From IMG/VR virus record IMGVR_UViG_3300037421_000187, positions 1 through 29,273 of that record: a DNA stretch of 29,273 nt. One strand, given 5' to 3'. A program made the position numbers and the translations under genes. Positions 2,620-28,031 of this stretch are shown here, piece by piece. Numbering within the stretch: the first letter of the stretch is position 1; each line of letters begins with the position of its first letter. The stretch comes from a virus. The notes beneath the pieces were generated by a model, which saw only the letters and a list, made by a program, of their open reading frames with translations, ran no database searches and was not told the DNA's origin.

Positions 2620-3195
2620 ATGCCAAAAATGTCCATTTCCGATCTCAAAGCCATGCTTTCCGCCGAAAAGGCCGACGCGCTTGCAGCGGTCTCCGCCGCA
2701 GAGCTCGCCGAAGAGCGGGCGGACGCGATGGACTATTATCTCGGCCACATGAATAAGGACATGCCGGTGCAGGAGGGCCGCTCGCGCGCGGTCTCGACCG
2801 ATGTCGCCGACACCATCGAAGGGTTGATGCCACATCTGATGGATATCTTTGCCGGCTCTGATGAGGTCGTCCGTTTTGAACCGGTCGGCCCCGAGGACGA
2901 GGCCGCGGCCGCGCAGGAGACCGATTACGTCAACCACGTTTTCATGCAGCAAAACCCCGGCTTCATAGTCCTCTATTCCTTCATCAAGGATGCGCTGCTT
3001 TCAAAAGTCGGCATTGTGAAAGTGTGGTGGGAGGAGCGCGAGGAGGAAGAGCGCGAGACCTATTATGATCTCACTGACGATCAATTCGCGCTGCTCGCGC
3101 AGGCGGTCGAAGAATCCGAAGGCGCGATGAAGATCGTGGCGCATTCCGTGCACGAGATAGGCGAGGCGCCGGAAGAGTCGGAAGCGACGAGCTGA
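2620..3195 (+). pseudogene. Phage portal protein, N-terminal part
   Basis: This 191-residue reading frame is the N-terminal third of a podovirus-type (P22/SU10-like) portal, the dodecameric ring that forms the DNA gate at one vertex of the capsid. Recognisable segments are the helix with MDYYLGHMNKDMPVQEGRS, VADTIEGLMPHLMDIFAGSD, and VLYSFIKDALLSKVGIVKVW, which are typical of this family's N-terminal clip/stem region. It ends at a TGA after an acidic stretch where intact relatives continue into a proline-rich linker and the core. The core is found in a different frame from 3414. The gene is therefore split, although the two parts could be made separately. No terminase large-subunit gene precedes it here. 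Confidence 0.85.
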
Positions 3196-3413
3196 GAGGT
3201 ACGTGCGGCTTTCTTTTTCGAATCAAAAGCGTCAGGGCATCTCATCCTCGAGCAGAACCTCTTCAAATCGCATTGCTCGTCGCTCAAGCAGCCGCTGAGT
3301 TCGTGCGCTGCTCAAGCTTGCATCACAATTCCAATCCCAACCCGTAACGGCGTCTCGCGCGAACGCGAGCGCGCGATCTCCTCATCATCTTTGGAGGCAA
3401 TGAGCTGAACATC
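3196..3413 (+). other. Unexplained spacer splitting the portal gene
   Basis: About 218 bases separate the two portal parts. They do not look like portal sequence in any frame. The frame of the N-terminal part is open again after its TGA up to a second TGA near 3405. The other forward frames contain stops. I see no IS ends, no intein motifs and no clear intron structure. GGAGG at about 3394-3399 lies 15 bases before the ATG at 3414 and could serve as a ribosome site for the second part. Confidence 0.5.
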
Positions 3414-5069
3414 ATGGCTACTCCCTTGCTTGCGCCACCGCTCCCGCCGCCGCCTCAGCCCGCGGTCACGCATGACGTCACCATCGTCACGACGAGAAAG
3501 CTCGCCCAAGCGAGAGTGCTCGGTGTGCCGCCGGAAGAATTCGGCATCGAGCGCGGCGCGCGCTCCATCCGCGAGTGCAATTATTGCTTTCATGAGGTGG
3601 TCACCAAGACCGAGAGCCAACTCATTGCCGAGGGCTTTGATGCCGAGCAGATCAGGTCGCTCAGTGATTACACCGGCACGTCCGAGATCGAGACGCTGGC
3701 GCGCGATACCGTGCAGGAGCATTTCGGCGCCGCCGACGGCGAGCCGAACAAGGCCGCGCGCCTCGTGCGCATCACCGAGCATTACGTGCGGATGGACTAT
3801 GAGGGGACAGGTCGCGCGAGCCTCTATCAGGTCATTACCGGCGGCGATGAGGACGAAATCCTGCGTCAGAACGGTCGCGAAAGCATCACGCCCTTCGACG
3901 TGATCCCGTTTGCGGCAACCACACCGGTGCCGGTCACCCATCGCTTTTTCGGCCGCTCGATCGCCGACCTCGTGATGCCGTTGCAGCGCGAGAAGACCGC
4001 GCTCAAACGTGGCGCGCTGGACAATCTCTATCTGCACAACAATCCGCGCGTGGAAGTCGCCGAAAGCAATGCAGGGCCGAACACGCTCGACGATCTCTTG
4101 GTGTCGCGGCCGGGTGGGGTGGTGCGCACCAAGACGCCGGGCGGGCTGAACTGGCAGGAGGTGCCCGATATCACCACCTCGATCTACCCGATGCTGCAAT
4201 ATCTCGATGCGGAGCTTGAAACCCGCACGGGGCTCGCCAAGCAGACGCAGGGGCTCGACGCGAACGCGTTGCAGAACCAGTCGGCCACCGCCGTGGCACA
4301 GGTTTTTTCGGCGTCCCAAATGCGCATCAAGCTGATCGCGCGGATCATGGCGGAGGGCGTGCGCGATATCTTTGCGCTGCTGCACGGCACGATCCGCAAA
4401 CATGGCCAGCAGATCCAGACGGTGCGTTTGCGCAACGCCTGGGTGAATGTCGATCCGCGCAACTGGAAAACCCGCGACGACATGACGATCAATGTCGGGC
4501 TTGGCACCGGTGGCAAGGCGCAGCAATTCGCACAGACCATGGCGATTGCCAATGTGCAGAAGGAATTGCTCTCCGCCGGCAAGGTGAACCTCGTCGGCGA
4601 CCTCCAGCTTTACAACACCGCGGCCGAGCTGACGCGGATCATGGGGCACAAGAACGCAAGCCAGTTCTTCAACGACCCTTCTGCGATCAATCCGCAGACC
4701 GGGCAGTTGCTCAATCCGCCGCCGGCGCCGCCTTCGCCGCCGCCCGACCCGAAATTGCTCGCCGCGCAAGCGCGTGCGCAAACTGACGCTGCGATTGCTT
4801 CACATCAGGCGCAGCTTCAAGCGCAAAAAGCGCAGAACGAAGCAATCCATTTGCAGGTGAAGACGCAAAGCGAGATCGCGCTCGCCAAGGTCAAGGCCGA
4901 CCTCGATGCAAAACTGTCAGTGCTCGACGCGCATCTGAAGGCGGCAACGGAAGCAGCGAAGACACCGCGCTCTTATCCACCCGGTGCGCGAAGAGCGAAA
5001 GACGGCCACCATTATGTGGCCGATCCGAACCGGCCCGGCAAATATCTGCTGGTCGTGCATCATGCCTGA
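3414..5069 (+). CDS. Phage portal protein, core and C-terminal part
   Basis: A 551-residue frame carrying the portal core. It starts with a proline-rich linker (PPLPPPPQP) and continues into VTTRKLAQARVLGVPPEEFG, a conserved step of the podovirus portal family. It then shows the FGRSIADLVMPLQREKTALK helix and the TRTGLAKQTQGLDANALQNQ and SATAVAQVFSASQMRIKLIA segments typical of the wing and crown. Residues about 430-530 form an Ala/Gln/Lys-rich coiled-coil tail. The last eight bases overlap the start of the toxin gene at 5062, so the two are translationally coupled. The 3' end of this gene is present in degraded copies at 6640-6864 and 10353-10633. Because the N-terminal third is in another frame, whether a functional portal is made is uncertain. 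Confidence 0.88.
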   Translation: MATPLLAPPLPPPPQPAVTHDVTIVTTRKLAQARVLGVPPEEFGIERGARSIRECNYCFHEVVTKTESQLIAEGFDAEQIRSLSDYTGTSEIETLARDTVQEHFGAADGEPNKAARLVRITEHYVRMDYEGTGRASLYQVITGGDEDEILRQNGRESITPFDVIPFAATTPVPVTHRFFGRSIADLVMPLQREKTALKRGALDNLYLHNNPRVEVAESNAGPNTLDDLLVSRPGGVVRTKTPGGLNWQEVPDITTSIYPMLQYLDAELETRTGLAKQTQGLDANALQNQSATAVAQVFSASQMRIKLIARIMAEGVRDIFALLHGTIRKHGQQIQTVRLRNAWVNVDPRNWKTRDDMTINVGLGTGGKAQQFAQTMAIANVQKELLSAGKVNLVGDLQLYNTAAELTRIMGHKNASQFFNDPSAINPQTGQLLNPPPAPPSPPPDPKLLAAQARAQTDAAIASHQAQLQAQKAQNEAIHLQVKTQSEIALAKVKADLDAKLSVLDAHLKAATEAAKTPRSYPPGARRAKDGHHYVADPNRPGKYLLVVHHA

Positions 5070-6105
5070 TTTCTCGCTGGTGCCGGTGGAGCATCAGCCG
5101 GATTTCGACGCCGTCTCGCTCGTTCCGGTCGATCACGATCCGTTTGGCGATAGCGGCGCGGTTCAGCAGGCGCAGCTTCAACCGGTGCAGTTTCAGCAGC
5201 CGCAGACCGAGACTCAAACAGCGCAGCCTGTGCCGCAAACTCAGGCACAACAGCTTGCGGCAGGGGCCGACGACTTCTTTAGGTCAATCCCTCGCGGGAT
5301 CGTCTCTGGCTTCAATAGCGCGGCGAGCGCATTGGCACGCGCCACGCAGGCCGAAATGGGACAAGAGGTGGATGCGCCGACCCCAGAACAGGGGATGCAG
5401 ATTGTTGAGAAAGAAGTCACCGGACCGATGCACAGGCCGGAAGGCCGAGCGGGCAAATTCGGCGCATCTGTCGGAGAGTTTCTTGGCAACCCCGCTTCCT
5501 ATCTCGTGCCTGGAAGCCTGCCCTTCAAAGTCGGAACGGCTGTGTTGGGGGGCTTGGGGAGCGAAGCGGGAGGTCAACTTGGTGAGGGGACACCCTTAGA
5601 GGCGCCTTTTCGGTTCGCCGGCGGCGCGCTCGGGTTCGGTGCTCCCAGTGTAGCCAAGTTGGGAGCAGGTGTACGTACCGCGCAGACTCTGGTGCCCGCC
5701 GTCGAGGAGACAGGCGCGGGGCTTCAAACGCTGACGGATGCGGTCCCACGCTCTCCAGCGTCCCGGGCAGCCGAAAAGGGATACCCGGGTATCGGTACCA
5801 CGGCGAACGGTGGGCCTACCTTTGTTGGGACCGATTATCTATATCCTGCCGCAAGGGGGCAGCAGAGCGTTGTGCGAATAGGACTCACGGGTAGCCGAAG
5901 GAATGATAAAGTTCTCGCGAACGAGGCGGGTGGGTTCACTGAAAAGCCGGAGGGATATACGTGGCACCACGTCGACGACTTCGATCCACAAAGTGGTATG
6001 AGTTCTCTTGAGCTTGTAGATGAGTGCGCGCATGTCGCCACCAACCGTCATACTGGTTCGGTTGCGCAGTACGAGAAGCACCACGGTGTACGGTACAAAC
6101 GTTGA
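5062..6105 (+). CDS. Phage-encoded polymorphic toxin with C-terminal WHH-type HNH/EndoVII nuclease domain
   Basis: A 347-residue protein. The N-terminus carries two SLVPVxHxP motifs (SLVPVEHQPDF, SLVPVDHDPF), followed by a Gln-rich linker to about residue 70. A hydrophobic Gly/Ala-rich middle (about 135-215, with FLGNPASYLVPGSLP) resembles membrane-active parts of phage ejection proteins. The C-terminal 90 residues are a nuclease domain: YTWHHVDDFDP with W301-H302-H303, then LELVDECAHVATNRHTGSV and QYEKHHGV, which is the WHH pattern of HNH/EndoVII toxins in polymorphic toxin systems. An immunity gene of the SUKH family follows 14 bases later. The ATG at 5062 was chosen because the same start and N-terminus recur at 10634. 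I infer a DNA-cutting toxin whose N-terminus may target it to the virion. Confidence 0.85.
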   Translation: MPDFSLVPVEHQPDFDAVSLVPVDHDPFGDSGAVQQAQLQPVQFQQPQTETQTAQPVPQTQAQQLAAGADDFFRSIPRGIVSGFNSAASALARATQAEMGQEVDAPTPEQGMQIVEKEVTGPMHRPEGRAGKFGASVGEFLGNPASYLVPGSLPFKVGTAVLGGLGSEAGGQLGEGTPLEAPFRFAGGALGFGAPSVAKLGAGVRTAQTLVPAVEETGAGLQTLTDAVPRSPASRAAEKGYPGIGTTANGGPTFVGTDYLYPAARGQQSVVRIGLTGSRRNDKVLANEAGGFTEKPEGYTWHHVDDFDPQSGMSSLELVDECAHVATNRHTGSVAQYEKHHGVRYKR

Positions 6106-6119
6106 CAAAAAGACAGGTA

Positions 6120-6572
6120 ATGGTTGTGTTTGAAAGGACTGCTCCGCCACTTTCTGAGTTAGATATCGAGCGCGTAGAGCGTCGCTTAGGTGTTCGCTTG
6201 CCGCAGGATCTCAGGGAACATTACCTCCTGCACAACGGTGGAAGACCTCGTCCTCGATTTTTTGTCAAGGATGGAGAGGCATATGATGTCGTCTGTTTCC
6301 ATTCCATGAACACAGGGGATAAGGGATCAAGCTTCGAGCGGATCTATGAAATATTGGTGGATCAGTCGCCCGAGTTTCCTCGGGGATATATACCATTCGC
6401 AAACAGCTCGTGTGGTGATCTGTTCATCTATAGCGTGAATCCAGAGTCTTTCGGGAATATAATGTTCTATCAACACGAATATTTTGGAGACGATGATCGA
6501 TACGTGGTGTTTCTCGCTCCAACCTTCAGAGAATTTATCGATTCTCTCTCCGAAGAACCTGACGCGTTGTAG
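6120..6572 (+). CDS. SUKH (SMI1/KNR4) family immunity protein
   Basis: A 150-residue protein of the SMI1/KNR4 (SUKH) superfamily, the commonest immunity family in bacterial polymorphic toxin systems; it binds and blocks nuclease toxins in the cytoplasm. The diagnostic pattern is present: an N-terminal helix ELDIERVERRLGVRLPQDLR, the NGG turn in YLLHNGG, and a core strand FANSSCGDLFIYSVN, with an acidic C-terminus. The ATG at 6120 was chosen because upstream codons overlap the toxin end in another frame. It lies 14 bases after the WHH toxin stop. Base composition is more AT-rich than the capsid genes, fitting acquisition together with the toxin tip. Confidence 0.92.
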   Translation: MVVFERTAPPLSELDIERVERRLGVRLPQDLREHYLLHNGGRPRPRFFVKDGEAYDVVCFHSMNTGDKGSSFERIYEILVDQSPEFPRGYIPFANSSCGDLFIYSVNPESFGNIMFYQHEYFGDDDRYVVFLAPTFREFIDSLSEEPDAL

Positions 6573-7790: not shown

Positions 7791-7851
7791 TATCGCAAAT
7801 TTGCTATATCGCCGCAAGGGCTATTTAATCTTTTTATCGCAAAAATGCGAT
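7791..7851 (+). promoter_or_regulatory. Two operator-like palindromes at the toxin/antitoxin-like operon start
   Basis: GCAAATTTGC lies at the centre of TATCGCAAATTTGCTATA (7791-7808), and ATCGCAAAAATGCGAT (7836-7851) is a perfect 6+4+6 palindrome overlapping the start codon at 7850. Both share the half site ATCGCA. Paired operators like these are usual for autoregulated toxin/antitoxin operons with an Xre-type repressor, here probably the product at 8235. The TATATCG between them could be a -10 region. Confidence 0.6.
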
Positions 7852-8269
7852 GGCCATCTGGATTTTTAGGTGTTACGATCCATCTACACCCAGTCGTGGC
7901 GGCTTCCACGAGTGGTACGATGTGTTGCCCCCGGCAATTGCTGCGGAGGTCGATCAAGCCCTGAACGTGCTCTCGCGGGAAAAGAAATGGGGTTTGCCCG
8001 AATACAAAGACCTAGATGGAAAATGCTCCGGCCTCGGCGAAATCAGAATCGATATTGCGCAGGCTTCAGATGATCCAGAGAAAGAATTACCGCCGCTTTG
8101 TTTTCGAATTTTGGGATTTGAAGGGCCTGAAAAGAGGCAGTTCACTTTACTCGTCGGATTTCAAAAGATCACAGGCTCAGAGTACTCAGTCGAATGCCCT
8201 AAGGCCCTTCAGCGTAAGAAGGGAGTGTTAAAAGATGGAAGCCGCGCCCCACAATGCTATTTCCCATAG
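7850..8269 (+). CDS. RelE/HigB-like toxin candidate of a type II-like module
   Basis: A 139-residue protein with the layout of RelE/HigB-type toxins: an N-terminal helix with ALNVLSREKKWGLPEYKDLD, a central strand GLGEIRIDI, then CFRILGFEG and FTLLVGFQKI strands, and a basic C-terminus (ALQRKKGVLKDGS). Such toxins cleave mRNA on the ribosome. The match is by pattern rather than by a strict signature, so the assignment is tentative. It overlaps the Xre-type gene at 8235 by 35 bases and is preceded by two palindromes, the usual genetic set-up. AT-rich for this window, as expected for cargo. Confidence 0.6.
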   Translation: MAIWIFRCYDPSTPSRGGFHEWYDVLPPAIAAEVDQALNVLSREKKWGLPEYKDLDGKCSGLGEIRIDIAQASDDPEKELPPLCFRILGFEGPEKRQFTLLVGFQKITGSEYSVECPKALQRKKGVLKDGSRAPQCYFP

Positions 8270-8936
8270 ACTAGCTCGTCTCGCGAGTAAGCTGAAAGAC
8301 AAGGTCTATCGCGACTCGTTTGTTGCCGCTCGCTGCCGTCGCTTCTTGGCTCATCAAATTCGCGCGCTTCGCGGTGACATGTCTCAAACTGAGTTTGGCA
8401 AGTTGCTAGACACGACGCAGAGCGTGGTCTCTAGGCTTGAAGATCCAACTTATGGGAAGATGACATTAAACTCGCTACTCGATGTTGCGGCGAAAACAGA
8501 TCGTGCGCTTCTAGTCCAGTTCGTCGATTGGAAAGTTATGTTGAAAATGGTCGCCGATGAGTCGGAAGAATCTTCCGCGCCGGCCCGTTATGATCAACTG
8601 GATATTCAATCGTTCGTGCAAGCGGAGGCGGTCAAGGATGCTGCACTTGGTTTGCAGACCGCCGTAGAAGATTGCTCGCCACGATTTCTATCATTGATTT
8701 ATCCAAGATTTTGGAAAGTGGATAGATTGTCTACCATCCATGCGACCTGTCGTGCGGAGCGCGAGCATTTATACGGGGCAAATCTCAATCGGTTGTTCCA
8801 ATTAGAATTACTAGATAATTCGATTGAGCAAGTTGGCGCGCCTGCGCGCATTCCTGGCGCTGAGATTTCGTCCTCGACGGAGGCTTACGTCAACAAGACT
8901 ATGTACATTCAACGAGCCGCAGGACTCGTGCAATGA
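8235..8936 (+). CDS. Xre-family HTH protein with long C-terminal extension (antitoxin candidate)
   Basis: A 233-residue protein. Residues about 32-85 form an Xre/Cro helix-turn-helix (MSQTEFGKLLDTTQSVVSRLED, split as MSQTEFGKLL and TQSVVSRLED), followed by TLNSLLDVAAKTDRALLVQF, a common continuation in HigA-like antitoxins. The remaining 130 residues have no family I recognise. It overlaps the toxin candidate upstream by 35 bases and the next gene by ATGA. It probably binds the palindromes at 7791-7851 and represses the operon. Confidence 0.8.
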   Translation: MEAAPHNAISHRLARLASKLKDKVYRDSFVAARCRRFLAHQIRALRGDMSQTEFGKLLDTTQSVVSRLEDPTYGKMTLNSLLDVAAKTDRALLVQFVDWKVMLKMVADESEESSAPARYDQLDIQSFVQAEAVKDAALGLQTAVEDCSPRFLSLIYPRFWKVDRLSTIHATCRAEREHLYGANLNRLFQLELLDNSIEQVGAPARIPGAEISSSTEAYVNKTMYIQRAAGLVQ

Positions 8937-9631
8937 AAACAATAAAGGTATTTCAGGGCACGGTTGCTTGCAGAGTGGCTAGTGATGACGTTGTGCCGTC
9001 GCCAGCGCCGCCGATGCAAGATGTTATTTCAGCAATTCAATCTAGGTATCAATTCGCCGCACCTGCGGAGCCGTTTGGGGTACAATTTGTTCCGGGGCAG
9101 GCTTTGAGCCAATACGCTTTTCAAAGTGGAAAGTTTGAGATCAACGGCGAGGCACATGCGATTGCGCAGTTAATCATGGAGCCAAACGGGGATGTGATAA
9201 CATCAACATCTACCGACGTTGCAAATTTGATTATGGATGACCTAACTCACTTCCTCGACGAAACATTCAAATACAAATTTCGCGAATCCAGCCAAAAAAG
9301 AAGCTTCGTAAGCACCGTCATAGTTCAATTCGATAATCGTCTCGAAGAAAAAATTTCTGCGCTTTCGGCAATCATCAAGATCGTCAATCAGGCAAAAAAC
9401 AGCAAAGACGAGGAGTTTAGCCTGAATAAATTGGCGTTCTCGACAGGTCCACGTCCTCCCGCAGTGGCAATGCCCTTTCAGTCTCACCTAAACATAATTG
9501 AAAAGGCGGAATACCTAATCGAGAGAAGGGCTAGCGCTGCTTTTTCCGAGAATAGGTACTTTTGCAGCGCTCCATTACACACTGCCGATCATATCAAGAC
9601 TCTTGAAGATATTGAGAAGATACTTTCGTGA
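8933..9631 (+). CDS. Third gene of the toxin/antitoxin-like operon, unknown function
   Basis: A 232-residue protein whose family I cannot name. It has mixed alpha/beta character: a strand-rich first half (LSQYAFQSGKFEINGEAHAI), a central FVSTVIVQFDNRLEE strand, and a helical stretch to the end (ADHIKTLEDIEKIL). It faintly resembles the sporadic TIGR04255 proteins found with defence genes, but I cannot support that from sequence alone. Coupled to the HTH gene by an ATGA overlap, so it is part of the same transcript. A third partner beside a toxin and an HTH antitoxin may be a chaperone or sensor. Confidence 0.65.
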   Translation: MKTIKVFQGTVACRVASDDVVPSPAPPMQDVISAIQSRYQFAAPAEPFGVQFVPGQALSQYAFQSGKFEINGEAHAIAQLIMEPNGDVITSTSTDVANLIMDDLTHFLDETFKYKFRESSQKRSFVSTVIVQFDNRLEEKISALSAIIKIVNQAKNSKDEEFSLNKLAFSTGPRPPAVAMPFQSHLNIIEKAEYLIERRASAAFSENRYFCSAPLHTADHIKTLEDIEKILS

Positions 9632-11927: not shown

Positions 11928-12644
11928 CTACTTTATAATATCGAACCTGATCGCCTTGGCGATGGCCTGCTCGAGAGTGGCGCATTCCAGTTTTTGTCGG
12001 GCCGTCCGCAAATAGGCGTGCACGGCGCTCGCCGACAGGCCGAGATCCGCGGCCACCTGGCCGGGCGTGCGTCCCCGCAAAATGTTTTCGAGGCACTGCT
12101 TTTCGCGCGGCGAAAGCGGCCGCATCACATGATCATGGCGTAGTCCCGAAAGCCGCATGGCGCGCTCGTGAAAAGAATCGGCGAGTAAACGAAAATCTCT
12201 GAGATATGTGTATCGCCAACGATGCCAATGCTCGTCGGCGGCATTGGTGGTGATGGTAAAAAGCGCGCGCTCACCGAGAGGACCGCGAATCGGCAGCGTG
12301 AAACCGTGGCGTCCGACGCCGTATCGCTCCGCTTCCGCGAAGAAATGCCTCGCCTGTGTGGTGTGATGTTCGACCGTCATCCAGTCGATCGGCAGGAAAC
12401 CTTTGGACCCCTCAAGCACCACCGGATCGATCTGAAAATAATCGCGCTCATGATAACGCTTGATCCATGCGTCGTCATAGGTCAGCACAAGCAGTGCATT
12501 TGTCTTGTCAAATGCGGGGATATGCACCGCGTGATAAACAAGGTGCGCGAGGCCGCTTTCATCGCGCAGATTGGCTAGGACATTGTAAAGCCCATCGATG
12601 TCCTTGGCTTGCTCGATGTCTCTGCGCGCGTATTCGAATTCCAT
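11928..12644 (-). CDS. LuxR-family quorum-sensing transcriptional regulator (orphan)
   Basis: A 238-residue LuxR-type regulator. The N-terminal autoinducer-binding domain keeps the acyl-homoserine-lactone pocket residues in order: W60, Y64 (AWIKRYHERDYF), D73-P74, W88 and a glycine near 114 (GRHGFTLPI). The C-terminal GerE-type helix-turn-helix runs from about 176 (PLSPREKQCLENILRGRTPG) through QVAADLGLSASAVHAYLRTA. It should therefore bind an acyl-homoserine lactone and regulate transcription. No luxI synthase lies in the window, so it is a solo or its partner is elsewhere. It is divergent from the gene at 12874; no clear lux box was found between them. Confidence 0.93.
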   Translation of the reverse strand: MEFEYARRDIEQAKDIDGLYNVLANLRDESGLAHLVYHAVHIPAFDKTNALLVLTYDDAWIKRYHERDYFQIDPVVLEGSKGFLPIDWMTVEHHTTQARHFFAEAERYGVGRHGFTLPIRGPLGERALFTITTNAADEHWHRWRYTYLRDFRLLADSFHERAMRLSGLRHDHVMRPLSPREKQCLENILRGRTPGQVAADLGLSASAVHAYLRTARQKLECATLEQAIAKAIRFDIIK

Positions 12645-24473: not shown

Positions 24474-24870
24474 ACTGATTTGTATCGATCCAGCGCGGAT
24501 TCATGAAATTTGGTTGCATGTCAGGGGACTGCTGAAGACAGCCTGTCGCCGCACCGAACTCAACGCCTTCGCCGATTTTGAGGCGGAAATTATTTCCGGC
24601 CGCAGTCTCCTGTGGGTCGCATGGAACGGGTGCGCGATCGAGGCGGCCGCGGCAACCGTGCTCACCAATTCCGAGATCGGCAAAGTGTGCGTGATCACGT
24701 TGTGCGCTGGGCACGGCATGAAACGCTGGCTGAAGCTGATCGAGTGGATCGAGGCTTACGCGAAAGACGAAGGCTGCGCCCGCATTCGTATCTTCGGCCG
24801 TAAAGGTTGGCTGCGCGTGCTCGAGGGATTTGAGAGCAAGCATGTCGTTATGGATAAGGTGCTCGCCTGA
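24394..24870 (+). CDS. Phage GNAT-like acetyltransferase-fold protein
   Basis: A protein of about 139-158 residues, depending on which TTG is used (24394 or 24454; no ATG fits). IHEIWLHVRGLLKTACRRTE, EAEIISGRSLLWVAWNGCAI, KVCVITLCAGHGMKRWLKLI and RIRIFGRKGWLRVLEGFE follow the order of the GNAT-like proteins common at the ends of tail operons in alphaproteobacterial phages. The usual acetyl-CoA loop (Q/RxxGxG/A) is only partly visible (CAGHG), so activity is uncertain. I favour 24454 because upstream residues do not look conserved. Confidence 0.75.
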   Translation: MPATPSQPCTPISQQPSARSLIPSRAELICIDPARIHEIWLHVRGLLKTACRRTELNAFADFEAEIISGRSLLWVAWNGCAIEAAAATVLTNSEIGKVCVITLCAGHGMKRWLKLIEWIEAYAKDEGCARIRIFGRKGWLRVLEGFESKHVVMDKVLA

Positions 24871-25028
24871 GCATTCGTTGACGTGAACGATGGGGAACAG
24901 CGGACGCTTACGATCAAGGGCGGAGCTGGCAAGCGTCTGACGTATCGTTTACCTAATTAAGCCTGATTTCAAGAGGCTGCCCCGGCGCTTCCTGCGCTGG
25001 CCGGCGAAGTAATCACAGCAACTAAAGC

Positions 25029-25077
25029 AGACAGCACGACTCGCCAAACACTGGCGGGCGCGCTAGGCTGTCTTTTT
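25029..25077 (+). terminator. Terminator after the virion operon
   Basis: AGACAGC (25029-25035) pairs with GCTGTCT (25067-25073), followed by a T run. An inner stem CGCCA/TGGCG lies in the loop. It is about 160 bases after the last virion-operon gene and probably ends its transcript. Bases 24871-25028 hold no convincing gene. Confidence 0.75.
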
Positions 25078-25105
25078 ACTGCGTTGCAACCAAGGGTAGC
25101 CGCTC

Positions 25106-25231
25106 TCATTTGCGGAGCTTTTTCTTCCGGGTAATTTTCTTCGCCGCCCGTACTCGGGAACCTCGTAGTGCTACTATGAAGCGGTCTGCCGCTTCCTTTG
25201 CGCTATATTCGTCGTTCGAATCTTTCGCCAT
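25106..25231 (-). CDS. Small basic protein, 41 residues
   Basis: Reads MAKDSNDEYSAKEAADRFIV, then a basic tail AAKKITRKKKLRK. The helix EYSAKEAADRFIVALRG resembles short antitoxin-like or DNA-binding proteins of rhizobia, which often read EYS..E...R...AL. It is divergent from the toxin-like gene at 25310, sharing an 80-base promoter region. It may be an extra regulator of that module. Confidence 0.5.
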   Translation of the reverse strand: MAKDSNDEYSAKEAADRFIVALRGSRVRAAKKITRKKKLRK

Positions 25232-25309
25232 GGCTATTAACTACCTTCATTTGTATCGGAAGTGTAAGTTGACTTTTAACACAACAACACTACCTTTGGG
25301 AGGGTAGGG

Positions 25310-25792
25310 GTGCCGCTGACGATAGTCGAGCGGAGGCCCCTGCGCCCGTTGGGTGCGACTGTTCGGCGACTCTCAGTGAGTACGGATGTTGCGGACCTCC
25401 TAGACGGTCGGACTGCTTTCGGAGATTTCCCGGCTGTCGAAGCAGAAAGGATGATCGGCATCTTCTGTGCAGGACAGTACCTCCGGATAAGCCGCAAGAA
25501 AAATAAGGTCCGTCCAGATTTGGAGAAGCTTGAAGGATTCGACGAAATTTGGAGTTTTTGTCTTCGCCGCCCAGTACCAGGTTGGCGGTTACTCGGGAGG
25601 TTTATTCAGAAGGACCATCTAATCCTGCTGCGAGGATGGGACAAACATAAGCTTGCCAAGCAGTATGAAAAGGCATCGGCGCAAATTATCGAAGACTGGG
25701 ACGCTCTATTTGGTACAAAGGTTGCGCATGGTGGCGATTGGTATTCAGGATATCTTAGTGGAGTGATCAGAGATGCCGACGAACCGTTCTAA
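25310..25792 (+). CDS. Toxin-like protein (RelE/HigB-type candidate), 160 residues
   Basis: GTG start with a GGGAGG site. Central blocks RISRKKNKVRPDLEKLEGFD, IWSFCLRRPVPGWRLLGRFI and HLILLRGWDKHKLAKQYEKA follow the order of phage-derived Gp49/HigB-like toxins (a basic patch, the EI.EFR-type strand, a hydrophobic strand, then a helix with K..K). The fit is by pattern only. It overlaps an HTH-type gene by 20 bases, the usual toxin-antitoxin arrangement. Confidence 0.55.
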   Translation: MPLTIVERRPLRPLGATVRRLSVSTDVADLLDGRTAFGDFPAVEAERMIGIFCAGQYLRISRKKNKVRPDLEKLEGFDEIWSFCLRRPVPGWRLLGRFIQKDHLILLRGWDKHKLAKQYEKASAQIIEDWDALFGTKVAHGGDWYSGYLSGVIRDADEPF

Positions 25793-26201
25793 GGCCAACG
25801 ACCCTAAATTTGAGCGGGCGTATTATCGCGCCATGCTTCGCTCCGCTTTTCTGAGCATGTTTTGGGCCGTCATTTCCGAGCGAAAGAAAAGTGGCCTTAC
25901 GCTCATGTCTTTCGCAAAAGCAGTCGGTTCTTCAAAGCATGAAGTTTCTCGATGGTTTAATGGAGATCCAAACTGGACCATCAATACCATTGCCGCTATC
26001 GCGCATGCTCTCAAGCTTAGGCTTCAAATTCAGGCTATAGATGAACATGGAAATGTCTACGGATCGAGCGGACCCCAGTCCGCGCCGACGAAGACTCCTA
26101 TAGCGACCTCTGGAGGCGCTCCAAAGCCCGTGAATGTAACGCGGAAGCCCGCCGGGGCGTCCGTTGTCGCATCCGATATTGCCTCGTCGGAGGCGGCTTG
26201 A
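25773..26201 (+). CDS. Xre-like HTH protein (antitoxin candidate), 142 residues
   Basis: Residues about 25-80 form a helix-turn-helix (SGLTLMSFAKAVGSSKHEVS followed by RWFNGDPNWTINTIAAIAHA), with LKLRLQIQAIDEHG after it, similar to antitoxins of HigA type. The C-terminal 50 residues are Ala/Ser/Pro-rich and disordered. It overlaps the toxin-like gene upstream by 20 bases and the next gene by one base. It probably autoregulates the operon. Confidence 0.8.
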   Translation: MPTNRSKANDPKFERAYYRAMLRSAFLSMFWAVISERKKSGLTLMSFAKAVGSSKHEVSRWFNGDPNWTINTIAAIAHALKLRLQIQAIDEHGNVYGSSGPQSAPTKTPIATSGGAPKPVNVTRKPAGASVVASDIASSEAA

Positions 26202-26701
26202 TGGTTAAGCTGGCCGATACTCCCGATGTATTCGGCAGTACCGTATTCTGTGATGATACCCGGATTGAGGCGAGCGGGAAGCTCATTCATATCGGTGTTT
26301 ATCACGGCGTCATGTCCATCCATGTTCCGTTTCCAGTTCGTCTCGCCACATTCTCGTTTGCAATTTCTCTTATACAGAAAGCTGACATTTTTAATCCAAA
26401 AATCACCTATAGAATTTTCCTACCCGGTGATCCCGATGATGCCTCTTCGGATGAAGCGTCGATAGTGGCTGAGATGAATGAAGCTAATCCCGGCGACCTT
26501 ATCAAACAGACCTACACGGCCGCAGATACTATGGGAATCCCGGGAGAGAGCCGCAAACTCGTCCGTTTGTTTGCAAACATGGCATTTCAGACGCTCGAAA
26601 TAAAACAGCCCGGCACGATCAAGGTACGGGCTGATATTGGCGATACTCGATATCGGCTGGGCACTCTTATGGTGGTCCCCGCCTCCGCGCCCCACGCTTG
26701 A
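26201..26701 (+). CDS. DUF6941-like protein, third gene of the module, 166 residues
   Basis: Starts MVKLADTPDVFGSTVFCDDT. The FCDDTRIEASGKLIHIGVYH segment matches the pattern of the DUF6941 family (C.D.R.E..GK....GVY), followed by a beta-sandwich-like remainder. The function of that family is unknown. The start overlaps the HTH stop (TGATG), so the three genes form one operon. It is the last gene before a 220-base gap. Confidence 0.7.
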   Translation: MVKLADTPDVFGSTVFCDDTRIEASGKLIHIGVYHGVMSIHVPFPVRLATFSFAISLIQKADIFNPKITYRIFLPGDPDDASSDEASIVAEMNEANPGDLIKQTYTAADTMGIPGESRKLVRLFANMAFQTLEIKQPGTIKVRADIGDTRYRLGTLMVVPASAPHA

Positions 26702-26924
26702 ACTACGTTCCAGCACCGGCTGTCAGCATCAAACTACCGGTTGGACTTGGGATGTGGCGCGATTTCACACAAGCCGCGTGATCTACGATCCATAGCGCAC
26801 TGGATCGCAGAGCGGATCACGATCGAGGCGGCTGAATTTATAGGGCGCGGCCCATCACTGCATCGAGTAGCCGGCCTTTGCAGCCAAAATTCCAACTCAC
26901 CATTCAAGAAGGAAACCCAATCCC

Positions 26925-28031
26925 ATGGGCGGTCAATCCACGTCGACACAAACGCAGCAGTCGCAAACGGCGCCCTGGCAAGCGGCGCAGCCGGACCTGC
27001 AAAGTATTCTCGGCCAGCTCAATCCGCTGATTCAAAATAGCGGCCTCACGCCGGCCGAAAGCGGCGCGATCAACCAATTGTCGCAAAACGCCGCGCAAGG
27101 AAATCCTTTCACGGGCCAGATCACCGACCTTGCGAACAACCTTTTGAACGGTGGCGGCGCTACCGCGCAGGCGCCGAATTTGCAAAGTGGACTGTCTTCC
27201 TTGCAGAGCCAGCTCACGCCGTTCGCGAACGGCAGCCAGGTCGGCAACGATCCGGCGTTGCAGGCTCAGCTTGCGCAGATCGCGAGCGACACGACCAACC
27301 AGATCAACGGCCAGTTCGCGGCGGCGGGAAGGGAGTTTTCCGGCGCCAACCAGCAGGCGCTTGCCCGCGGCATTGCGCAAGGAGAAGCGCCCGTGATCGC
27401 GTCGCAATATAATCAGGATGTCGCCGATCAGTTGAACGCGGCGAATACGCTGTTCAACGCGCAGAATGCGACGAGTGGGTTATTGTCGGGTTTGAATCAG
27501 CAGGCGCTCGGCAATCAGCAACAGGGCGTCACCGCCGCGCAAAATGCGCTTTCGGCGCAGAATTTCGGTCCTCAGCAGCAATTGGCGCTGGCGCAACTGG
27601 CGCAGAGCATCCCTGCGCAAAATCTGCAATTGCTCGCGCAGATCGGCGTTCCCATCGCGAAGCTCGGCTCGCAATCGAACGGCACCACGCAAGGCACGCA
27701 GGATTTATCCGGCGCGCAGCAGTTTGGAACGATTGCGCAAGGTCTTGGCAGCCTGGCCAAGTTTCTGCCTTCTGATGCGCGCCTGAAGGAAGAGATCACG
27801 CCGGTCGGCAGCCTGTTCGATGGCACGCCGGTCTATGGCTATCGCTACAAGGGAGCGGGCGCCTATCACATCGGCCTGATGGCGCAGGATGTGGAGAAGG
27901 TCAGCCCGCATGCGGTGATCGAAATCGGCGGCTTCAAGGCGGTTGATTATCGCGCTGCGACCGAAGCCTCGCGCCGTACATTTACGCGGACAAAGATTAC
28001 GATTTTGAATCCGAGGGAAAGCCCTTGTTGA
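26925..28031 (+). CDS. Fibre-like virion protein with C-terminal S74 intramolecular chaperone
   Basis: A 368-residue protein. Residues 1-270 are Gln/Asn/Ala-rich helical sequence (STQTQQSQTAPWQAAQPDLQ; IASDTTNQINGQFAAAGREF), like other phage internal or fibre proteins. Residues about 285-345 match the S74 chaperone: SDARLKEEITPVGSL (with the catalytic Ser and Lys of the self-cleaving dyad), VYGYRYKGAGAYHIGLMAQD, EKVSPHAVIEIGGFKAVDYR. After ATEAS the sequence RRTFTRTKITILNPRESPC does not resemble the family, and another frame continues (YIYADKDYDFESEGKPLL) to a stop at 28112-28114. A frameshift near 27970 is likely. RBS AAGGAA at 26907. Confidence 0.85.
   Translation: MGGQSTSTQTQQSQTAPWQAAQPDLQSILGQLNPLIQNSGLTPAESGAINQLSQNAAQGNPFTGQITDLANNLLNGGGATAQAPNLQSGLSSLQSQLTPFANGSQVGNDPALQAQLAQIASDTTNQINGQFAAAGREFSGANQQALARGIAQGEAPVIASQYNQDVADQLNAANTLFNAQNATSGLLSGLNQQALGNQQQGVTAAQNALSAQNFGPQQQLALAQLAQSIPAQNLQLLAQIGVPIAKLGSQSNGTTQGTQDLSGAQQFGTIAQGLGSLAKFLPSDARLKEEITPVGSLFDGTPVYGYRYKGAGAYHIGLMAQDVEKVSPHAVIEIGGFKAVDYRAATEASRRTFTRTKITILNPRESPC

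Follow-up and report, generated by a model that had tools for sequence, protein, structure and literature searches.

A conserved three-component toxin-antitoxin-like module with an unusual third component, found in a viral genome and in other phages, plasmids and bacteria

The window analysed here, a virus record of 29,273 bases, contains three genes on one strand which encode, in order, a toxin-like protein (gene 1), an HTH protein (gene 2) and a third protein of uncertain family (gene 3), with a conserved 18-bp element and a small divergent ORF ahead of them (Table 1). Genes 1 and 2 overlap by 20 bases and genes 2 and 3 by a single base (TGATG), or by 4 bases if the alternative TTG start at 26198 is used for gene 3. 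A toxin gene upstream of an overlapping XRE gene is the HigBA layout, the toxin assignment itself coming from a predicted fold. An earlier sequence-only reading of the window had described these reading frames, a neighbouring gene for an S74 protein and the recurrence of a three-gene form in the same record. All of the reading frames that it described are present, the gene 3′ of the module (26925-28031) encodes a Pfam Peptidase_S74 domain, and the recurrence is real. Its view of the locus as a toxin-like/HTH/DUF6941-like unit also stands for the three genes, but not for the 41-aa divergent protein that it had added as a fourth element. No Rfam RNA family was found in the window at gathering cut-offs, and positions 24850-27000 gave 0 matches to a sigma-70-type promoter compared with 1.9 in shuffled sequences.

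Table 1. Positions of the module, of its candidate operator and of related features in the window.
Feature	Position	Strand	Details
First three-gene module	7850-9631		weak matches to Gp49-like (E 0.0025) and HTH (E 0.016) families; third gene of 232 aa
Divergent 41-aa basic ORF, probably outside the module	25106..25231	-	
Conserved 18-bp element GTTGACTTTTAACACAAC, imperfect inverted repeat, probable operator of the HTH protein (candidate)	25268..25285	+	
Gene 1, toxin-like, divergent HigB/RelE fold (predicted)	25310..25792	+	GTG start, 160 aa
Gene 2, XRE/HTH_3 antitoxin-like repressor	25773..26201	+	142 aa; Pfam HTH_3, E 2.1e-6
Gene 3, DUF6941-like, predicted Ig-like beta sandwich	26201..26701	+	ATG at 26201, 166 aa

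The closest relative that we found, the virus record IMGVR_UViG_3300028786_000159 (L002), encodes counterparts of genes 1, 2 and 3 with protein identities of 87, 87 and 67%. Between the two records dN was 0.07 for the toxin, 0.07 for the HTH protein and 0.22 for gene 3, while dS was 1.15 for the toxin and 1.68 for the HTH protein, both near saturation, and was not estimable for gene 3; the resulting dN/dS values of ∼0.06 (toxin) and ∼0.04 (HTH protein) indicate purifying selection on both. Since all three genes are kept in L002 and dN/dS is low for the toxin and the HTH protein, the three-gene grouping is real and goes beyond chance. The module follows a truncated SU10-like portal fragment in L002 and lies just upstream of the S74-domain gene in the window, and because its neighbours differ in this way it behaves as cargo. 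We do not count the 41-aa ORF as belonging to the module: the corresponding frame in L002 (52.5% identity over 40 aa) is interrupted by an in-frame stop, and no convincing counterpart was seen in the other loci of the set L001-L071.

Gene 1 had no family match at E values up to 1 in Pfam, NCBIfam, PHROGs or PADLOC, and two profile searches of the PDB gave no toxin match. Its AlphaFold2 model, built from 29 aligned sequences, has a pLDDT of 92.5 and a pTM of 0.88. The best Foldseek matches of this model were toxin chains (6af4_C, E 0.044, probability 0.92), with nothing at E 0.001 or better. With VIA-align the best Z was again that of 6af4_C (Z 10.3, rmsd 2.9, 104 aligned), and 7nbu_Y, the M. 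tuberculosis HigB1 of a TAC (toxin-antitoxin-chaperone) system, and 5ja9_C (HigB2) reached Z 9.0 and 8.0 respectively. Rows 1-40 of the 44 VIA-align rows were toxins of the RelE/HigB/YoeB/YafQ/ParE types, except for 8phb (Cami1, matched at residues 263-369), and a few of them, such as HP0894 and HP0892, are counted as toxins although their titles do not name them so; unrelated rows appeared only after row 40, from Z 2.8. The protein is thereby predicted to have the RelE/HigB fold of the RelE/ParE (BECR) superfamily, and judging by this model its activity is most likely that of a ribosome-dependent mRNA interferase. It is this predicted model that carries the toxin assignment, since no significant sequence link to known toxins was found and a profile comparison of the gene 1 class (the first class) with a HigB-2-like class (the second class, discussed below) showed no similarity (probability 0.2%). 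The profile of the second class, for its part, matches five HigB-2 chains at E 0.018-0.027. The gene 1 class would be a class of toxins that the sequence searches used here missed.

Gene 2 has a C-terminal tail of ∼60 residues, the end of which appears by eye to be rich in S, T, P and A. Of 47 first-class antitoxins, 25 could be measured with our pattern, and in these the HTH core is followed by 53-83 residues. In the nine second-class antitoxins listed the extension is N-terminal; its length is an upper bound, because the first in-frame start was taken. The HTH proteins of eight second-class loci all match Pfam HTH_3 at E 2.9e-11 or better. By eye, antitoxin tails are also present beside other third genes (L022 and L028). 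An assignment of gene 2 to the PADLOC model PDC-M64 was rejected because among the proteins scanned only HTH proteins match this model, alongside many other HTH models, and the toxins and DUF6941 proteins in the scan do not; our literature search found no paper naming PDC-M64.

Gene 3 matches the Pfam family DUF6941 (PF22091) with an E value of 2.6e-5 and 25.0 bits, which is under the gathering cut-off of 27. The label “DUF6941-like” given to it in the sequence-only reading is nevertheless apt, and we count gene 3 as a borderline member of the family because its relatives L069 (39.2 bits) and L050 (28.1 bits) pass the cut-off. In profile comparison the divergent third genes of L018 and L031 also match DUF6941, at 98.1%. 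The curated PF22091 model returned one match, under the cut-off, from 398 genomes of the phylum and is therefore too far from the gene 3 subfamily to serve in a survey; as our own queries reach only this subfamily, nothing is claimed here for PF22091 at large. For gene 3, AlphaFold2 gives an all-beta model (pLDDT 86, from 41 sequences) in which helices do not exceed 4 residues. In VIA-align its best Z was 6.7, and it matched many beta-sandwich chains, including Ig-like ones of middling Z; these matches name no family, since the arrangement is common. The best match among viral structure predictions was an uncharacterised protein from a phage with a Gram-positive host, Anoxybacillus phage A403 (BFVD A0A2P1JU14, E 1.3e-6, TM 0.59/0.70), and no sequence relative was found in the PDB at E values up to 1. 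Kinship with SecB was looked for by profile comparison and not found, the DUF6941 profile (41 rows) giving a probability of 0.3% against three SecB proteins. The structure of SecB is unlike the all-beta model of gene 3, and SecB is not among the structural matches listed for that model, an observation that excludes nothing by itself. No paper naming DUF6941 was found in our literature search, and in the literature on tripartite systems a DUF6941 or Ig-like third component appears in no title or opening of an abstract among the matches listed. In 30 of 35 module pairs conservation is lower for the third gene than for the toxin; the pairs overlap in membership and include one pair of 100% identity and some short third-gene alignments. 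This lower conservation would suit a sensor but would also suit weak constraint.

The 18-bp element ahead of gene 1 is the sole match in the window to GTTGACTTTTAACACAAC at up to 3 mismatches (chance expectation 0.06) and lies within a 22-bp block that is identical in the window and in L002. In both records the frame of gene 1 meets a TAA stop within the element (at 25277-25279 in the window), so it is as DNA, and not as gene 1 protein, that the element is kept in the two. Most first-class toxin genes have their start inside, or immediately behind, an 18-bp element that approaches the palindrome GTTGACATATATGTCAAC. Scored against a reference site, 40 of 44 first-class regions and none of 9 second-class regions reach at least 13 of 18, a threshold that was chosen after the scores were seen; as shuffled sequences reach 12-15, a lone site at 13 is no evidence by itself. 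The four first-class regions below the threshold comprise two that score 12 (L016 and L017) and two cut by contig ends (L035 and L041). One locus, L009, has two copies of the element, one of them ∼100 bases upstream. The symmetry and covariation of the palindrome arms were not significant against partner shuffling, with 162 of 2000 shuffles reaching the observed value.

We also scanned the DNA of the viral collection blindly with the family consensus GTTGACWTATATGKCAAC, an exact pattern that the copy in the window does not fit. The scan returned 26 stretches, in 14 of which a toxin starts at the element; 10 had no module gene and 2 had less than 40 bases of downstream sequence. All three genes were present in 13 of the 14 stretches with a toxin, the other (L096) showing the toxin within a stretch of 274 bases. 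Nine of the 14 lie on already known contigs, which had helped to shape the pattern, and five (L086, L087, L095, L102 and L109) are new modules among 15 assessable new stretches. In the cultured phage MinM1 the first-class toxin has its annotated start codon within a TTGAC-N6-GTCAA site, and the modules on plasmids of Bosea and of Rhizobium CCGE532 have, by eye, only degenerate versions of the element. We regard the element as the probable operator of the HTH protein, a candidate role suggested by sequence, and it provides a DNA signature for finding more modules.

For the viral survey of gene order we used nine gene 3 sequences alone as the query, which identified 38 loci. Toxin, HTH and DUF6941 genes follow one another in this order in 35 of them, two of the others being cut by contig ends and one differing. 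By class, 25 loci have a first-class toxin and HTH gene and 10 a second-class (HigB-2-like) toxin and HTH gene; the remaining three have an HTH gene at the contig end (L057), no room upstream (L039) or two other proteins (L049). After clustering of gene 3 at 90% these numbers become 24 and 8, with one each of the L057, L039 and L049 types. One of the loci, L032, is on the L002 contig, and in L035 and L041 the contig end truncates the toxin. Many of the loci counted had also contributed to the final class profiles; with an earlier toxin profile of nine sequences, a set of 36 proteins still gave matches at E 0.01 for 21 of the 25 first-class toxins, and the full ORF set for 16. The sequence-only reading had proposed to look for DUF6941-like genes behind this type of HTH gene, and to regard random association in other genomes as evidence against a module. 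With the gene 3 query, and hence for the subfamily of gene 3, an HTH gene precedes the DUF6941 gene in 36 of the 38 viral loci, an association that is not random.

The other queries were applied to genome collections. An HTH-only query gave all three genes in 5 of 5 confirmed genome contigs. Gene 1 as the query had matches in 8 of 347 genomes of an order and in 12 of 337 genomes of a class, two of these 20 being seed genomes, and toxin, HTH and DUF6941 genes were found in order in 13 of the 20 loci. Among the others, L026 has the HTH fused in one frame with a DUF429-like part that is below the cut-off, L027 and L030 are cut by contig ends, and L019 is probably a false match; L022, L028 and L031 are considered below. 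Gene 3 as the query identified 12 loci in 337 genomes, 10 of them with an HTH gene directly upstream, and 7 of the 12 had already been found via gene 1 (L073, L074, L075, L076, L080, L081 and L084). Plasmids of Rhizobium and Bosea also carry modules. Since the same three genes adjoin one another in other phages, plasmids and bacteria, the cassette probably represents an overlooked family of three-part toxin-antitoxin systems.

Compared with known systems, the module resembles type II HigBA in having the toxin gene first and an XRE antitoxin second, and in that the predicted fold of gene 1 is best matched by HigB-type structures (6af3/6af4 of S. pneumoniae, M. tuberculosis HigB1 and HigB2). It differs from HigBA in showing no detectable sequence kinship, in having a third gene at nearly every locus, and in a shared DNA element into which the start codon of the toxin often falls. 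With the TAC systems (HigBA1-SecB of M. tuberculosis, HigBAC of E. coli and CmdTAC) it shares the order of toxin, antitoxin and accessory genes, an accessory common to unlike toxins, and antitoxins with tails; the accessory here, however, is a predicted Ig-like all-beta protein without a match to SecB in profile comparison. The chaperone-addiction tails of TAC antitoxins are described as ∼30-47 residues long, as lacking significant similarity to one another and as working at either end of the proteins onto which they are grafted (PMC5105189). The E. coli system HigBAC is reportedly triggered when a lambda tail protein disrupts the contact of antitoxin and chaperone (PMC11980606). In the E. coli defence system PD-lambda-2 a HigB-like gene and an HTH gene are likewise reported with a third gene that is required for defence, but its second protein is an HTH-peptidase fusion and its third is related to a P4 phage antitoxin (PMC9519451).

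Also among the closest known systems are gp52 and gp51 of Pseudomonas phage MD8 with the gene that follows them, which encode HigB-like, HigA-like and DUF6941/Ig-like proteins in the same order and match our profiles at E 4.8e-36, 7.9e-42 and 1.5e-37 (in a set of 12 proteins). The toxin and HTH protein of MD8 belong to the HigB-2-like class, unlike the first-class pair of the window. The depositors of the MD8 genome had independently named the products a HigB-like toxin, a HigA-like antitoxin and a putative Ig-domain containing protein; where the MD8 paper treats this system it describes the two genes HigB-HigA, and there the third gene is not linked to them (PMC8508860). The cassette is a conserved toxin-antitoxin-like module of three components, the third of them unusual.

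We consider it fairly probable that the module is a phage-borne, tripartite type II-like toxin-antitoxin system of HigBA layout, in which gene 3 encodes an accessory protein with the antitoxin as its target, in the manner of the SecB-like chaperones of TAC systems. Toxicity, neutralisation, autoregulation and the role of gene 3 are here inferred. Gene 1 would be a divergent toxin of the HigB/RelE fold, with an mRNA interferase activity suggested by that fold. Gene 2 would be an XRE antitoxin that binds GTTGAC-N6-GTCAAC-like elements at the head of its own operon and represses it. The Ig-like DUF6941 protein probably binds the flexible tail of the antitoxin and keeps the antitoxin stable. By analogy with TAC, an infecting phage, or loss of the genetic element, would remove this protection, whereupon the antitoxin would fail and the toxin would halt translation; the likely benefit is maintenance of the prophage together with exclusion of competing phages. 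Cultured phages such as Pseudomonas phage MD8 offer a direct test of this reading. If it is true, it gives a function to a domain of unknown function, and Ig-like DUF6941 proteins add a second, unrelated class to the third components which, as the TAC systems have shown, can turn a toxin-antitoxin pair into a phage alarm.

The alternative that survives best, although we think it unlikely, is that toxin and HTH protein form an ordinary two-component HigBA and that the DUF6941 gene encodes a separate defence or sensor protein which is merely co-transcribed. An HTH antitoxin is usually enough in HigBA, the third gene usually diverges more than the toxin, and other genes can take the third place: a first-class toxin and HTH gene are followed by a 217-aa protein in L022 and by a DUF3467-like protein in L028 (E 2.2e-5, 24.8 bits against a cut-off of 25). 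C-terminal similarity (15 of 34 identities, pairwise E 4e-8, the rest unaligned) links the L022 protein to the 232-aa third protein of the first module in the window; as L022 joins this toxin class and HTH to such a protein, third genes look exchangeable between modules. Against a mere neighbour, however, a protein of the gene 3 type holds the third place, overlapping or nearly abutting, behind two unlike toxin/HTH classes, the first class and the HigB-2-like class of 10 of the 38 viral loci, and it stays with the toxin where the HTH gene is missing. The latter is the case in L031 (1441-2317; the same locus as L084), in which a first-class toxin gene is directly overlapped by a DUF6941-like gene with no HTH gene between them, and because of this locus the third protein may act directly on the toxin.

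An alternative that takes this further, with DUF6941 itself neutralising the toxin and the HTH protein serving mainly as a transcriptional switch, has a known parallel in HipBST, a tripartite system described as having neutralisation split off from the HTH protein. We think it a good deal less likely again, as L031/L084 is the one such locus among those examined and a single subfamily would then need to bind toxins of two unlike classes. Least likely of all, and improbable in our view, is a lysogeny-control cassette with the HTH protein as phage repressor and a RelE-fold protein that is no longer toxic, for although 11 of 30 assessable viral loci have an S24-like ORF ([GA][DNCE]SM) in the 1.5 kb upstream, compared with 2 of 30 downstream (7 of 36 loci with a stricter pattern) and the module follows cI in phage MD8 and an S24-like gene in phage MinM1, the module of the window lies just before an S74-domain gene and others are on Rhizobium and Bosea plasmids.

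Returning to the tripartite, TAC-like system that we favour, a more specific form of it, which we think less likely than not, would make DUF6941 a second, SecB-independent kind of third component, namely an Ig-like clamp on a disordered antitoxin tail, perhaps by addition of a beta strand. Such a clamp would serve unlike toxins, would be exchangeable, and would be a phage sensor whose capture by an invader frees the toxin, making it a convergent counterpart of the TAC chaperones that has spread through temperate phages and plasmids.

Several further features were noted at the surveyed loci and in the window. In L004 (Rhizobium plasmid pMK-2) the module lies between genes for a large ATP-binding protein and a HEPN-domain protein, a possible defence neighbourhood. 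At L079 (538-2007) an HTH gene (Xre-like, below the cut-off) and a DUF6941 gene follow a 142-aa ORF that belongs to neither class of toxin, and a variant of the 18-bp element lies upstream. At L049 (3181-4456) the DUF6941 gene lies behind a 130-aa protein with a weak match to the Tse2 ADP-ribosyltransferase (E 0.0057, below the cut-off) and a family-less 144-aa protein; the locus may represent a third type of toxin that shares this third component. The SU10-like portal gene of the window (2620-5069) is split into two ORFs that cover profile positions 2-163 and 172-580, with ∼220 bases between them in which Rfam revealed no RNA family; in L002 (3897-4553) the N-terminal portal ORF ends at about the same place as in the window, and the toxin module begins ∼450 bases later. 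Elsewhere in the window a WHH (HNH/Endo VII) nuclease-domain protein and, next in order, an overlapping SUKH (SMI1/KNR4) protein (4984-6572) resemble a polymorphic toxin/immunity pair, a Fic/DOC-family protein is encoded on the minus strand at the start of the contig (68-1234), and a LuxR-type regulator with an autoinducer-binding domain (E 3e-29) is encoded at 11928-12644, also on the minus strand.
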